Assembly: GCA_013696965.1 (NCBI GenBank)
Contig: JACCXN010000057.1
Span: 186,001-250,000 of the forward strand
Length of the DNA stretch: 64,000 nucleotides
DNA from: Bacteroidota bacterium
GTDB taxonomy: Bacteria; Bacteroidota; Bacteroidia; JACCXN01
Direction of reading: 5' to 3'
This document shows positions 12,589 through 18,557 of the stretch, piece by piece. Positions within the stretch are counted from its first letter, which is position 1. Every line of letters begins with the position of its first letter. The position numbers and the translations under genes were made by a program. The notes under the pieces were generated by a model. The model saw only the letters and a list, made by a program, of their open reading frames with translations, was not told the DNA's origin and made no database searches.

Positions 12589-14673
12589 ATGAAAGCTAAA
12601 AAATTACTGGGATTAATAATTGTATACCTGCTCTTTACAAACATGCTTTTTGCCCAAGTATTTCCCTCTGGAAATATGCAAACAGCTCTACCTGATTATC
12701 AATCCATGTTATTTAAAATTTCAGTTTCTGGACTTTCCTCACAAACTGATGCTTCCTTTGGTTTGGAATCAGTTTGTATTGATATTCAACATCCGAATAT
12801 TAATGATCTTGTTGTTAAGCTTATTTCACCTGACAATATTGAGACTTTACTTGTTGGATATTACATTGGAACAAATTATACGGGCACCTGTTTTAATGGG
12901 AGTGCTCCAAATATGATAAGCGAAGGAACTGCACCTTTTACTGGTTATTATAGGCCAGAGGAGGATTTGGGAAAGAACAATTACTATAAAAACCCTAACG
13001 GAAATTGGAAATTGCAAATCATTGATACAAAACAGGGAAATTCAGGTACAATAAACAACTGGAGCCTTACTTTTAGTAATAATCCAGCTAAACCATTTGT
13101 TGAATCTGAACTTCCAATAATGGTAATTAACACAAAAGGGCAATTTATTGCCAGGGAAAAAAGAATTGTTGTAGATGTGGGTATTATTTCAAACGGGGAT
13201 CAGCAGATAAATCGATTATCCGATCCCTGGAACCATTATAGCGGGTTGGGAAGTATACGATACCGAGGAAGAAGCTCCATGATGTTTCCTAAAAAAGGAT
13301 ATGCCTTTGATACAGAAACTATAAATGGAGAAAATCTTGAAGTTCCACTTCTGGGTATGCCTGCAAACAATAAATGGGTGCTTTATGCCTCCTATAATGA
13401 TAAAACTTTATTAAGAAATGTATTCTCTTATGAGCTTTTTGAAAAAATGGGTCATTATTCTGTACGATCAAGATATGTAGTATTAATTATTAATGGTAAT
13501 TACATGGGAGTTTATGTTCTGACTGAAAAAATTAAACGAGGAAAGGAACAGGTACCCATTTCAAAATTAGCTCCAGAGGATATTGCTGGTGATGACCTTA
13601 CTGGAGGATATATAATTTCCATTGACAAAAAAAGCAGCAACAGAGATGGCTGGAGTAGCAATTTTCCGTCAAACTCAAAGAATCAACCTGTTTTTTTTCA
13701 ATATGAATATCCAAAGCAAAAAAATATACAACAAGTTCAAAAAGATTATATTAGAGCTTACTTTAATGAATTTGAAAATACGCTAATGGCATCTCATTTT
13801 AAAGATCCGTTCATTGGATACCGGAAATACATTGATGTTAGGTCTTTCTATGATAATTTTATCATAAATGAATTATCTAAAGATATAGATGGCTATCGAA
13901 TAAGCACTTATTTTTATAAAGACAAGGATAGCGAAGGTGGAAAAATAATAAATGGACCAGTTTGGGATTTTGATCTTGCCTGGTATAATTCAAATTATGG
14001 GGGGGGGGATCAAGTTGCTGGCTGGCAATACCAGTTTGGTTGGAGTTGGCAGGCTCCTCCACCAGGAGAAGAAACATTTCCAACGCCTTTTTGGTGGCGA
14101 AAATTTATGGAAGATCCTGTTTTTGTAAATGAATTAAACTGCCGCTACCAAAATCTCAGACTCAAAGAGCTCTCAATTGATAATTTATATAAAATGATTG
14201 ATAAAACTGCTGCTGAAATAAAAAAGGAGAGAGAAAAAAATTTTCAGTATTGGCCAATTATGGGAAAATGGGTTTATTCAAATGTAACACCTGTTGCCAA
14301 AACTTATGAGGAGGAAGTTCAAAGAATGAAAGATTGGATAAAAAACAGAATGGCCTGGATTGACACCAATATTCCCGGGGGATGTGCTGATGTTGGATTG
14401 AAAAGTCAAGATCTAAAGGTTTCATCCTTTTCAGCATTTCCTAATCCTTGTACCGATAATTTAACATTGAATTATTATATTTCAAATTCTGCCAATGTGA
14501 AAATTGAAATAATAAATTCACTTGGAATTACTGTTGTACAAATACTAAATGAACAACAAAATTCAGGTCTTTATTCTGAAAAAATAGATGCACATTCCCT
14601 GGCAAAAGGAATTTATTTAGTCAAACTTACAACTGACAATACAATTTACCATCAAAAGATAATAAAAAACTAA
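12589..14673 (+). CDS. CotH-kinase-family secreted protein with P-domain and T9SS sorting tail
   Basis: The 694-residue exported protein has a signal peptide (1-22, ending LFA before QVFPSG), a proprotein-convertase-type P domain (about 25-165; ends NWSLTFSN), a CotH-like domain (about 175-550) and a T9SS type A sorting domain (about 615-694; FSAFPNPCTDNLTLNYYI through AKGIYLVKLTTD). In the CotH part, the segments YRGRSSMMFPKKGYAFD, LYASYNDKTLLRN, NGNYMGVYVLTEKIKRG and the metal-site-like GPVWDFDLAWYN are visible. Spore-coat CotH is a protein kinase, so this may be a secreted kinase, but the role in Bacteroidota is unknown. A run of ten G occurs at 13999-14008, encoding Gly-Gly-Gly, in an otherwise AT-rich gene. 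Apparently monocistronic. Confidence 0.85.
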   Translation: MKAKKLLGLIIVYLLFTNMLFAQVFPSGNMQTALPDYQSMLFKISVSGLSSQTDASFGLESVCIDIQHPNINDLVVKLISPDNIETLLVGYYIGTNYTGTCFNGSAPNMISEGTAPFTGYYRPEEDLGKNNYYKNPNGNWKLQIIDTKQGNSGTINNWSLTFSNNPAKPFVESELPIMVINTKGQFIAREKRIVVDVGIISNGDQQINRLSDPWNHYSGLGSIRYRGRSSMMFPKKGYAFDTETINGENLEVPLLGMPANNKWVLYASYNDKTLLRNVFSYELFEKMGHYSVRSRYVVLIINGNYMGVYVLTEKIKRGKEQVPISKLAPEDIAGDDLTGGYIISIDKKSSNRDGWSSNFPSNSKNQPVFFQYEYPKQKNIQQVQKDYIRAYFNEFENTLMASHFKDPFIGYRKYIDVRSFYDNFIINELSKDIDGYRISTYFYKDKDSEGGKIINGPVWDFDLAWYNSNYGGGDQVAGWQYQFGWSWQAPPPGEETFPTPFWWRKFMEDPVFVNELNCRYQNLRLKELSIDNLYKMIDKTAAEIKKEREKNFQYWPIMGKWVYSNVTPVAKTYEEEVQRMKDWIKNRMAWIDTNIPGGCADVGLKSQDLKVSSFSAFPNPCTDNLTLNYYISNSANVKIEIINSLGITVVQILNEQQNSGLYSEKIDAHSLAKGIYLVKLTTDNTIYHQKIIKN
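13999..14008 (+). repeat. G10 homopolymer inside CotH-like gene
   Basis: Ten consecutive G bases lie in frame as the end of a run of three glycine codons plus the first base of an Asp codon. A change of one or two bases would frameshift the gene upstream of its sorting domain. Confidence 0.9.
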
Positions 14674-15147: not shown

Positions 15148-17760
15148 TTAAACTTGCAGTTTTTTCAAACTTTTTTCTATATTAACTCCCCTATGTGTTA
15201 ATAAACCCTTCAATAAATCTCCTTTTTTTTCCAGTCTTCCAAAAATATTTTTAATGGTGAATTGCTTGGGATTCAAATCATAATTTACTTCATCCCAATT
15301 CAGAGGTGTAGAAACCGTTGCTCCCTTCCTTGGTCTAACGCAATAGGGAGCAGCAATGGTTTGGCCATGATTGTTTTGAAGATAGTCAAGATATACTTTG
15401 TTTTTTCTTTTTTTTGGACTTCTTTCCAGACTAGTAATTTCTGGTAAACGATTGTTTACAATTTTGCAAATTACATGTGCGAAATTTTTACAAGTTTCAT
15501 AAGAATATTTGGCTCCTAAGGGAACAAGTATATGAAGACCTTTTGATCCAGATGTTTTAATGAATGCAGGTATTTTTGCAGAATCAAGAACTTCCTTTAC
15601 AGTAAGGGCAGTTTGAGTTACAAGCTTAAAATCCACATCAAGTGGATCAAGGTCAATAATTAGGTAATCAGGGTTATCCAAAGATCCTATTCTTGAACTC
15701 CAGGGATTAATTTCGATGCAACCAAGATTGGCCATATAAATAAGGGTTGGCTCATTTTGACATACCAGGTATTTAATGCTTCCTTTTGATTCGGAAGGAA
15801 CTTCAATGGTTTTTACCCAATCTGGAATCATATTTTTTACATTCTTTTGAAAAAAATTTTTCTCATTTATTCCGTTTGGGTGCCTGTTCATTGATTCTGG
15901 ACGGTTTTTCAAGTATGGGAGAATGAATGTTGAAATTTTTTGATAGTAATCAATTACATCTCCTTTAGTATACAGCTCATCAGGAAAATAGATTTTATTT
16001 AAATTTGTTATTTTTAGCTTTTCACCATTAATAACAACTTCCTTATTAATTGATTTCCTACTAGCGGTTGCAGTTTTGTTTATAGTATTGTCTTTCTTTT
16101 TTTTATTTTTTATAATTGCTTTCATCTGGATTTCTTTTTCCTTTTCAACATCACTTGCCGTTTTATCTTCACGCAAGCCTAAAAATACGGGATGCCGCAT
16201 TTGTCCTTGCTTTGTCCATTCAGTAAATTTCACCTCGCCTACTAACATTGGCTTAACCCATGTTGCTTTTGTATTGGTTTTTGGGACTTGATTAAAGGGA
16301 GATACATCAGTGGTGATTTTATCTAATTTCTCCTTTATTGTTTTAAGCGATTTTTCATCAAATCCTCCTCCTGAATGTCCTGCATATTTAAGTTCCCCGT
16401 TTTCATATAAACCTAAAATAAGGGATCCAAAGTGTTTTCTGCTTTTTCTTGGCGCAGTATATCCACAAATTATTACTTCCTGGCGCAAATGAGTTTTAAT
16501 TTTCAGCCATTCACTGGTTCTTTTGCCTGAATAATATTTCCCTTGTTTTTTTTTTGCTATAATGCCTTCCATTCCCTTTTCCTCAACCTCATTAAAAAAG
16601 AAAACACCATCTTCTTCGATATGATCACTAAAAGAGATCTGATTGTGTTTAACCGTATCAATTACTTGTTTTAATATTTTTTTTCTTTCAATCAAAGGAA
16701 GATTTCTCAGGTCTTCTCCATTGAGCCAGAGAATATCAAAAACATAATACACAAGGTTTAACTCTGTGTCATTATAGTTCTGTAAAAGTTGAAAAGAAGG
16801 CATTCCATGCTTATCTAATGCTACAATTTCACCATCAATAACTGCATTGTCCTGAATTGTTTCAAGAGCATTTTTAATGGAAGGGAATTTTTGATTAAAA
16901 GATTTTTTGTTTCTGGAATATAGCCTTATTTTGCCTTTTTGAATTGCCGCCATAGCCCGATAACCGTCCCATTTTATTTCAAAGATCCAATCTTCATTAT
17001 TAAATGCCTGTTCCACAGAGCTTGCCAGCATGGGTAAGCAGTTTTCAGGAGGGATTGTGATTTTTGTTGCTTTTTTCCTTTTTGATGAATTAAACGGAGC
17101 ACTTGTTTTTTGAATGTGTGATGAAAGAAGTATGGCAGGTTTAACCGATTTATTTTTTCTGATTTTTTTCTCTAATTTTTGTTTGTTTACTTTTGCAATA
17201 TCTTCAATTTTTTTGCCTGATCTTACTGATTTATCAAGAGAAAGTATGTCTGTTCCAGAGAATTCATCTTTCGCTTTTACAAGCATCCAGGCATTTTCTC
17301 CTCTTTTTCCTATTTTTATTAGTGAAAATTTTCCTTTCAATTTTTTTCCTTTCAAATAAAAGGAAATGCGTCCTTTACTGAATCCTTTTATAAAGAGGTT
17401 TTCATTCTCCTTTTTTGGTAAATCATTATTAATATAAAAATGTCCTTGGTCCCAAATTAAAACTTCTCCTGCACCATAATTTCCTTCAGGAATTATTCCT
17501 TCAAAATCCTTGTATTCAAATGGATGGTCTTCCACTATGATGGCAAGCCTTTTTTCATTTGGATCCATTGAAGGGCCTTTTGGCACGGCCCAGCTTTTAA
17601 GCACACCCTGAATTTGCAAACGAAAATCATAATGCAAATGTGAAGCTGCGTGCTTATGAACAACAAAACTTAGTACTTCTTTTGCAGCTATTTTTTTTTC
17701 ACCCTTTGGTTCTGTTGTTTTATTGAATTTCCTTTTTTCTTTATATTTTTCCAGTGTCAT
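15148..17760 (-). CDS. ligD: Multifunctional DNA ligase D (phosphoesterase-ligase-polymerase)
   Basis: LigD seals double-strand breaks by non-homologous end joining with Ku. The 870-residue protein has three domains in the order 3'-phosphoesterase (about 1-175; HKHAASHLHYDFRLQ at 35-49 carries the catalytic His/Asp), ATP-dependent ligase (about 235-535; adenylated lysine K263 in FEIKWDGYR; EKGMEGIIAKK) and primase-polymerase (about 580-870; DLDPLD metal-binding aspartates; TSGSKGLHILVPL). A lysine-rich linker joins phosphoesterase and ligase. The domain order differs from mycobacterial LigD (Pol-PE-Lig). The ATG overlaps the stop of ku by four bases, so the two are translationally coupled. 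Monoterminal gene of a two-gene operon. Confidence 0.95.
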   Translation of the reverse strand: MTLEKYKEKRKFNKTTEPKGEKKIAAKEVLSFVVHKHAASHLHYDFRLQIQGVLKSWAVPKGPSMDPNEKRLAIIVEDHPFEYKDFEGIIPEGNYGAGEVLIWDQGHFYINNDLPKKENENLFIKGFSKGRISFYLKGKKLKGKFSLIKIGKRGENAWMLVKAKDEFSGTDILSLDKSVRSGKKIEDIAKVNKQKLEKKIRKNKSVKPAILLSSHIQKTSAPFNSSKRKKATKITIPPENCLPMLASSVEQAFNNEDWIFEIKWDGYRAMAAIQKGKIRLYSRNKKSFNQKFPSIKNALETIQDNAVIDGEIVALDKHGMPSFQLLQNYNDTELNLVYYVFDILWLNGEDLRNLPLIERKKILKQVIDTVKHNQISFSDHIEEDGVFFFNEVEEKGMEGIIAKKKQGKYYSGKRTSEWLKIKTHLRQEVIICGYTAPRKSRKHFGSLILGLYENGELKYAGHSGGGFDEKSLKTIKEKLDKITTDVSPFNQVPKTNTKATWVKPMLVGEVKFTEWTKQGQMRHPVFLGLREDKTASDVEKEKEIQMKAIIKNKKKKDNTINKTATASRKSINKEVVINGEKLKITNLNKIYFPDELYTKGDVIDYYQKISTFILPYLKNRPESMNRHPNGINEKNFFQKNVKNMIPDWVKTIEVPSESKGSIKYLVCQNEPTLIYMANLGCIEINPWSSRIGSLDNPDYLIIDLDPLDVDFKLVTQTALTVKEVLDSAKIPAFIKTSGSKGLHILVPLGAKYSYETCKNFAHVICKIVNNRLPEITSLERSPKKRKNKVYLDYLQNNHGQTIAAPYCVRPRKGATVSTPLNWDEVNYDLNPKQFTIKNIFGRLEKKGDLLKGLLTHRGVNIEKSLKKLQV

Positions 17761-18557
17761 TTTTTTATTTGCTTTTGTTGCGACCGTTCCTTTTTACGTT
17801 TTGCTAAGCTTGCCTTTAGCATATTCATTAATTGGTTATTGTCAGTTGGTTTGGGTTGCTTTGCTTTGCCTGCTTTTATTGGTTTGCCTTTTGCCTTTTT
17901 CTCAATCATTTCCAATAGTGCCCGGGAATATTCATCTTTGTATTTTTGGGGATTAAACTCTGAACTAGATTGCTCAATAAGTGCAAGAGCCATTTCCAGT
18001 TCCTTTCCCTTGCTGAGTTTGTCCATGGGTAAGTTTAATTCTTCAGTACTTCTTATTTGATCAGTGAACCTGATTTGATTCAATACTACTACATCTCCTG
18101 ATGGTTTTACAACACCAATATGTTGTTTGTTACGAAATACAAATAGTGCAATGCCCACTTTTTTTGATTTTTGAAGGGCCTGCCTTAACAATGCATAAGG
18201 CCTCTGGGCTGTTTTATCAGGTTCAAGGTAATAGGGCTTTTCATACAAAATGGAATCTATTTCTGATTCATCCACGAAATCAACTATTTCAATGGTTTTT
18301 GTTTTTTCAGGGCTGGCTTTTTCGAAATCTTCATTTTCAACAATAATATACCTGTCATCCCATTTATAACCTTTTACAATATCCTGGTAAGGTATTTCCT
18401 TATCAGAACCTGTTGAAATCCTTGCATACCTAATAGGGGAAAGGTCATTCTTATCCAACATATCAAAATCCAGCTTTACACTTTCTGTGGCACTGTATAC
18501 CTTTACAGGTATATTTACTAATCCAAAACTTATAGCACCTGACCAAATTGCCCTCAT
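17757..18557 (-). CDS. ku: Bacterial Ku protein (non-homologous end joining)
   Basis: Ku forms a homodimeric ring that threads onto broken DNA ends and recruits LigD. This 266-residue protein opens with the family hallmark MRAIWSGAISFGLVNIPVKV, followed by the Ku core beta-barrel to about residue 200 (FVDESEIDSILYEKPYYLEP is typical), and ends in a lysine-rich tail (about 225-266), the usual DNA- and LigD-interaction extension. It is the first gene of the ku-ligD operon. Directly before the ATG the transcript can form an 8-base-pair hairpin, which might restrain translation. Confidence 0.95.
   Translation of the reverse strand: MRAIWSGAISFGLVNIPVKVYSATESVKLDFDMLDKNDLSPIRYARISTGSDKEIPYQDIVKGYKWDDRYIIVENEDFEKASPEKTKTIEIVDFVDESEIDSILYEKPYYLEPDKTAQRPYALLRQALQKSKKVGIALFVFRNKQHIGVVKPSGDVVVLNQIRFTDQIRSTEELNLPMDKLSKGKELEMALALIEQSSSEFNPQKYKDEYSRALLEMIEKKAKGKPIKAGKAKQPKPTDNNQLMNMLKASLAKRKKERSQQKQIKK

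Follow-up and report, generated by a model that had tools for sequence, protein, structure and literature searches.

A ten-G tract in a CotH-like T9SS cargo gene of a Bacteroidota bacterium: a probable incidental homopolymer

A tract of ten G, unmatched in length by any other G run in the genome of a Bacteroidota bacterium, is probably an incidental homopolymer. It is located in a gene for a CotH-like protein predicted to be exported by the T9SS, and lies in a window of 64 kb (i.e., the whole stretch of DNA that was analyzed) within a genome of 3,861,066 bases. The length of the tract, its conservation, and its genomic setting can all be accounted for without selection as a switch. Judged from its sequence, the tract could occasionally slip and break the gene that carries it.

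Results

The host gene encodes a CotH-like T9SS cargo

The tract is found in a forward-strand open reading frame (ORF) of 694 codons (positions 12589-14673), whose predicted product is a secreted protein of 694 aa with a P-domain, a CotH domain and a T9SS type A sorting domain. The N-terminus is hydrophobic and was judged by eye to be a signal peptide. In profile searches, a proprotein-convertase P-domain was detected (PF01483, 1.8e-11), and the CotH domain at residues 223-591 (positions 13255-14361) matched PF08757 over the whole profile (1-322 of 322) with 206.8 bits against a cut-off of 23.8 (E 8e-61). The sorting domain occupies residues 617-694 (positions 14437-14670) and was recognized by both TIGR04183 (52.4 bits, cut-off 23, E 3.8e-14) and PF18962 (1e-12).

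The genome also encodes SprA (2697.9 bits), indicating that a T9SS is present, and contains 147 sorting-domain matches above the cut-off; these 147 of 148 sorting-tail matches were used, and the single match below the cut-off was omitted. Because of SprA and these matches, the description of the gene in an earlier sequence-only reading, a T9SS-exported CotH-like gene, proved correct. By its profile matches, the gene is both a CotH protein (PF08757) and a T9SS type A cargo.

Four further CotH-domain genes of approximately 1000 codons each, every one with a T9SS sorting-domain match, follow one another elsewhere in this genome (C38:11587-23265; loci L132, L133, L134 and L136). Within the window, positions 15148-18557 hold a gene for DNA ligase D (LigD, identified by a profile match) and an ORF that overlaps it at 17757-18557. 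The product of this ORF is putatively Ku-like, and we take the two to be a bacterial end-joining pair.

The tract lies in frame over a glycine loop

Exactly ten G were confirmed at positions 13999-14008 of the window sequence; no other G or C run in the 64 kb is longer than seven. The tract starts at codon 471 in codon phase 0, 68% of the way along the gene, and covers codons 471-473 (GGG GGG GGG) and the first base of a GAT codon, which together are read as Gly-Gly-Gly-Asp. The earlier claim of a ten-G run in frame over three glycines is thus borne out by both the sequence and the codon phase. The glycine-rich loop (peptide NYGGGD) adjoins the WDFDLAW motif of the CotH domain (positions 13963-13983), which lies directly upstream. 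Most homologues have W-D-[FY]-[DN] at the position of the WDFD motif, whose aspartates presumably have a catalytic or metal role.

Slippage would remove the sorting domain

We translated the gene in silico with tract lengths from 6 to 14. The frame is kept, and the full-length protein produced, with 7, 10 or 13 G, and lengths of 6, 8, 9, 11, 12 and 14 yield products of 511-515 aa. The alternative frames stop approximately 40 residues past the tract, and their short tails have no domain evident by eye. Besides the sorting tail, the out-of-frame products are predicted to be missing about 120 residues from the end of the CotH domain. It had been proposed that a slip of one or two bases would cut off the sorting domain, and the translations agree, since slips by anything other than whole codons are predicted to truncate the protein in this way. 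As in contingency loci, G10 is a slippable homopolymer inside an ORF, and a change in its length would, by translation, abolish or restore the product.

A G10 run is able to slip during translation or transcription, and the early ends of the alternative frames would also suit a programmed frameshift or transcript-slippage site that gives a defined shorter product. However, the RNA downstream of the run is about as structured as its shuffles (z -0.30), the alternative tails are short and without an evident domain, and the run is shared by no homologue. We regard such a site as very improbable and rejected it on the unremarkable downstream structure.

The tract is rare for the window and ordinary for the genome

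A genuine contingency locus, in which slippage of G10 would toggle export of the surface CotH-like protein and the tract length would be kept by selection, appears unlikely. It would be consistent with an in-frame tract at which every out-of-frame length is predicted to lose the sorting tail, and with the presence of a T9SS in the genome. Ten G also falls within the range of Campylobacter jejuni poly-G loci, whose colonies, in the part of the source available, carried mostly G8-G10 tracts, with lengths forming a hump (G8, 257; G9, 214; G10, 431; G11, 77; G12, 9; PMC4965091). The position of the tract does not decide the matter, because most C. jejuni tracts also lie within the body of reading frames, as described in the same portion of that source (PMC4965091).

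The frequency of long runs speaks against selection on length. Overlapping matches to G6, G7, G8 and G9 were counted on both strands of the genome, giving 233, 42, 9, 4 and 1 G runs of at least 6, 7, 8, 9 and 10, respectively. This decay is near-geometric (0.18 times as many runs of at least 7 as of at least 6), with a single tract of at least 10 and no hump at G8-G11. Extrapolation of the tail predicts 0.25-0.35 runs of at least 10 genome-wide, compared with the one seen (P 0.22-0.29, i.e., about 0.2-0.3); an excess of the tract over the genomic background, which would support a contingency locus, was therefore not found. Runs of at least 9 are in slight excess (4 seen versus 1.4-1.8 expected, P 0.05-0.10).

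The statement in the sequence-only reading that the run is very unlikely by chance must be split accordingly. It holds for the preselected 64-kb window, in which a mean of 0.03 ten-G runs is expected and 2 of 100 dinucleotide shuffles had at least one, but does not hold for the genome of 3.86 Mb. Codon usage gives a similar picture. GGG is the rarest glycine codon (123 of 1036, or 12%, in 42 window ORFs), and three in a row are therefore unusual at a single site, but not across the genome: Gly-Gly-Gly followed by a codon starting with G occurs five times in 17,622 window codons, and scaling these cases to the genome gives, as a rough estimate, on the order of 0.5 such G10 runs. The case illustrates the worth of a genome-wide null, under which a run that is improbable in 64 kb becomes ordinary over 3.9 Mb.

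The distribution of runs among genes was also considered. G runs of at least seven fall in T9SS cargo ORFs in 7 of 42 cases versus 3.2 expected, with the cargo-gene intervals approximated from open-frame lengths; the P value of 0.039 is uncorrected for glycine content or multiple looks, and two of the seven runs are antisense to the gene. This weak excess fits a contingency locus, but was set aside as too weak to serve as evidence for a switch.

The homopolymer is not conserved

Homologous loci were compared at the glycine site. The comparison included 40 of 55 non-self loci; loci L016-L030 match the protein only partly and away from the site, and were excluded. The count was made over 39 homologues. 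L057, with a contig that stops at residue 478, was dropped, as were L001, which is the window's own copy, and the second of two HSPs for L004. Glycine is present at positions 471, 472 and 473 in 2, 11 and 32 of the 39, respectively. None of the 39 has a G run longer than 4 at the site, the longest local run being 4. A conserved homopolymer was accordingly rejected, and the repeat retention in orthologues that would support a contingency locus is seen in 0 of 39. L057, outside the count, reads TAT TAT GGC GGT GAT.

The nearest relative, L002, is from the same family (46-47% identity) and reads GGT GGA GGA AAT, with no gap or length change. The glycine peptide is thus shared and the homopolymer is not, because L002 encodes Gly-Gly-Gly with other codons. 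The G10 gene differs from L002 at this site by synonymous changes and one change giving GAT, in a direction that is presumptive. Within the window genome, no G run of seven or more falls on any of the other seven CotH matches. Two other genomes of the family, both from other genera, were compared; they are poor in long runs, with two (G001) and one (G002) overlapping 9-mer matches.

An error in sequencing or assembly, with a true length of, e.g., G9, or with mixed codons, would be another explanation of the tract length. Some runs of G12 or longer in other assemblies (G020, G030, G040, G051 and G054) look like artefacts because of their location at the ends of contigs or in closely spaced pairs on opposite strands. 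The window tract, however, is far from the ends of its 288-kb contig, the reading frame continues through it with homology on both flanks, and ten G keep the frame and give a residue count equal to that of the nearest relative. Such an error is improbable here.

Long G runs elsewhere in the genome and class

Other long runs were inspected at selected loci among the counted tracts, and ten proteins (nine from those loci and L043 from the window genome) were searched against Pfam. In the window genome, a G9 at L033 likewise covers in-frame glycines, in an ORF that we take from its motif to be sugar-nucleotidyltransferase-like. Another G9 (L043:1351-1359, contig C103) is near the N-terminus of a secreted-looking protein that has no Pfam match and whose gene runs off the contig. 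A third (L041:786-794, contig C91) immediately precedes a T9SS sorting domain; its frame is short, with 142 codons, and resembles a gene fragment. In G001, the genome of the nearest relative, the sole run of at least 9 is a G10 (L098:1501-1510) over in-frame Gly-Gly-Gly in a peptidase C25 gene.

Among 60 genomes of the class, counts of G 9-mers vary widely, and 11 have G12 or longer. These counts were not accepted as proof of a wider poly-G system in the class, because some of the runs lie at contig ends. In several assemblies, L105, L113, L116, L118 and other places with G12 or longer are at contig ends or in opposite-strand pairs; such runs are probably sequencing or assembly artefacts. Long poly-G runs are numerous in genome G028, reaching G15, and three (L101, L120 and L128) occur close to where long open frames begin; this genome is more promising for poly-G phase variation than the window. 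Pfam indicated no surface function for these three, with no match for L101 or L128 and TPR repeats for L120. In G022, a TPR-repeat ORF contains a G9 (L071:1501-1509) and stops shortly downstream of it. With another tract length the open frame would be much longer, so the assembled form could be an off state or else an error of assembly.

Discussion

The proposal that G10 acts as a contingency locus found no positive support: the run belongs to a near-geometric tail, is absent from 39 homologues, and is replaced by other codons in the nearest relative, and the in-frame state of the assembly is the only state seen. Mismatch repair also appears intact. Both MutS (MutS1) and MutL are encoded in the genome with scores above the profile cut-offs, which counts against a contingency locus; loss of mismatch repair was rejected on the same matches.

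We favor the explanation that the tract is incidental. The glycine-rich loop that follows WDFD in the CotH domain supplies three adjacent glycines, and in this lineage all three happen to use GGG and are followed by GAT, giving ten G. Like any G10, the tract should slip more than average DNA, and slippage may produce occasional cells with a truncated, non-exported product as a passive effect. Counting against an incidental origin, the longest G run of the genome would truncate a surface-type protein, an effect typical of contingency loci, and there remain the slight excess of runs of at least 9 (4 versus 1.4-1.8) and the 7 of 42 runs of at least G7 in T9SS cargo.

A broader proposal is that poly-G slippage is a second mechanism of phase variation in Bacteroidia beside DNA inversion, in which G10 would toggle CotH export and cargo genes with G7-G9 in the same genome would toggle as well. 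We consider this rather less likely still than a switch at G10 itself. If true, phase variation in Bacteroidia would not be limited to invertible DNA but would include homopolymer-slippage control of T9SS export.

Comparison with known systems

The class of the window genome, judged from its named homologues, is presumably that of Bacteroides, and, as in Bacteroides phase variation, switching of a surface function at G10 would occur within that class. The Bacteroides systems, as presented in the accessible part of a review, are DNA inversions, i.e., invertible promoters and genes, and not homopolymer slippage (PMC11868660), and the portion seen of another raises slippage in B. fragilis as a possibility (PMC3090145). 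The available part of PMC2831843 has no mention of Bacteroid- or Flavobacter-, and the titles and abstract starts of the open-licence PMC papers retrieved describe no poly-G switching of T9SS cargo.

The window tract resembles C. jejuni poly-G loci in being a tract of about ten G in the body of a reading frame, where a single-base change would truncate the product. In C. jejuni NCTC11168, 29 poly-G/C loci of seven or more were reported and switching was measured, according to the part of the source available (PMC4965091). In contrast to these 29 loci and to the hump of colony lengths, both described in that part of the source (PMC4965091), the window genome has one G10 in a near-geometric tail, seen at its assembled length.

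The host protein is like CotH-domain proteins (PF08757; spore coat protein H, PDB 5jd9/5jda) in its whole-profile match (8e-61), and residues 264-316 show a weak sequence match to 5jd9 (E 0.005). Unlike those proteins, it has no spore-protein annotation and combines a P-domain with a T9SS sorting tail; any kinase activity is putative.
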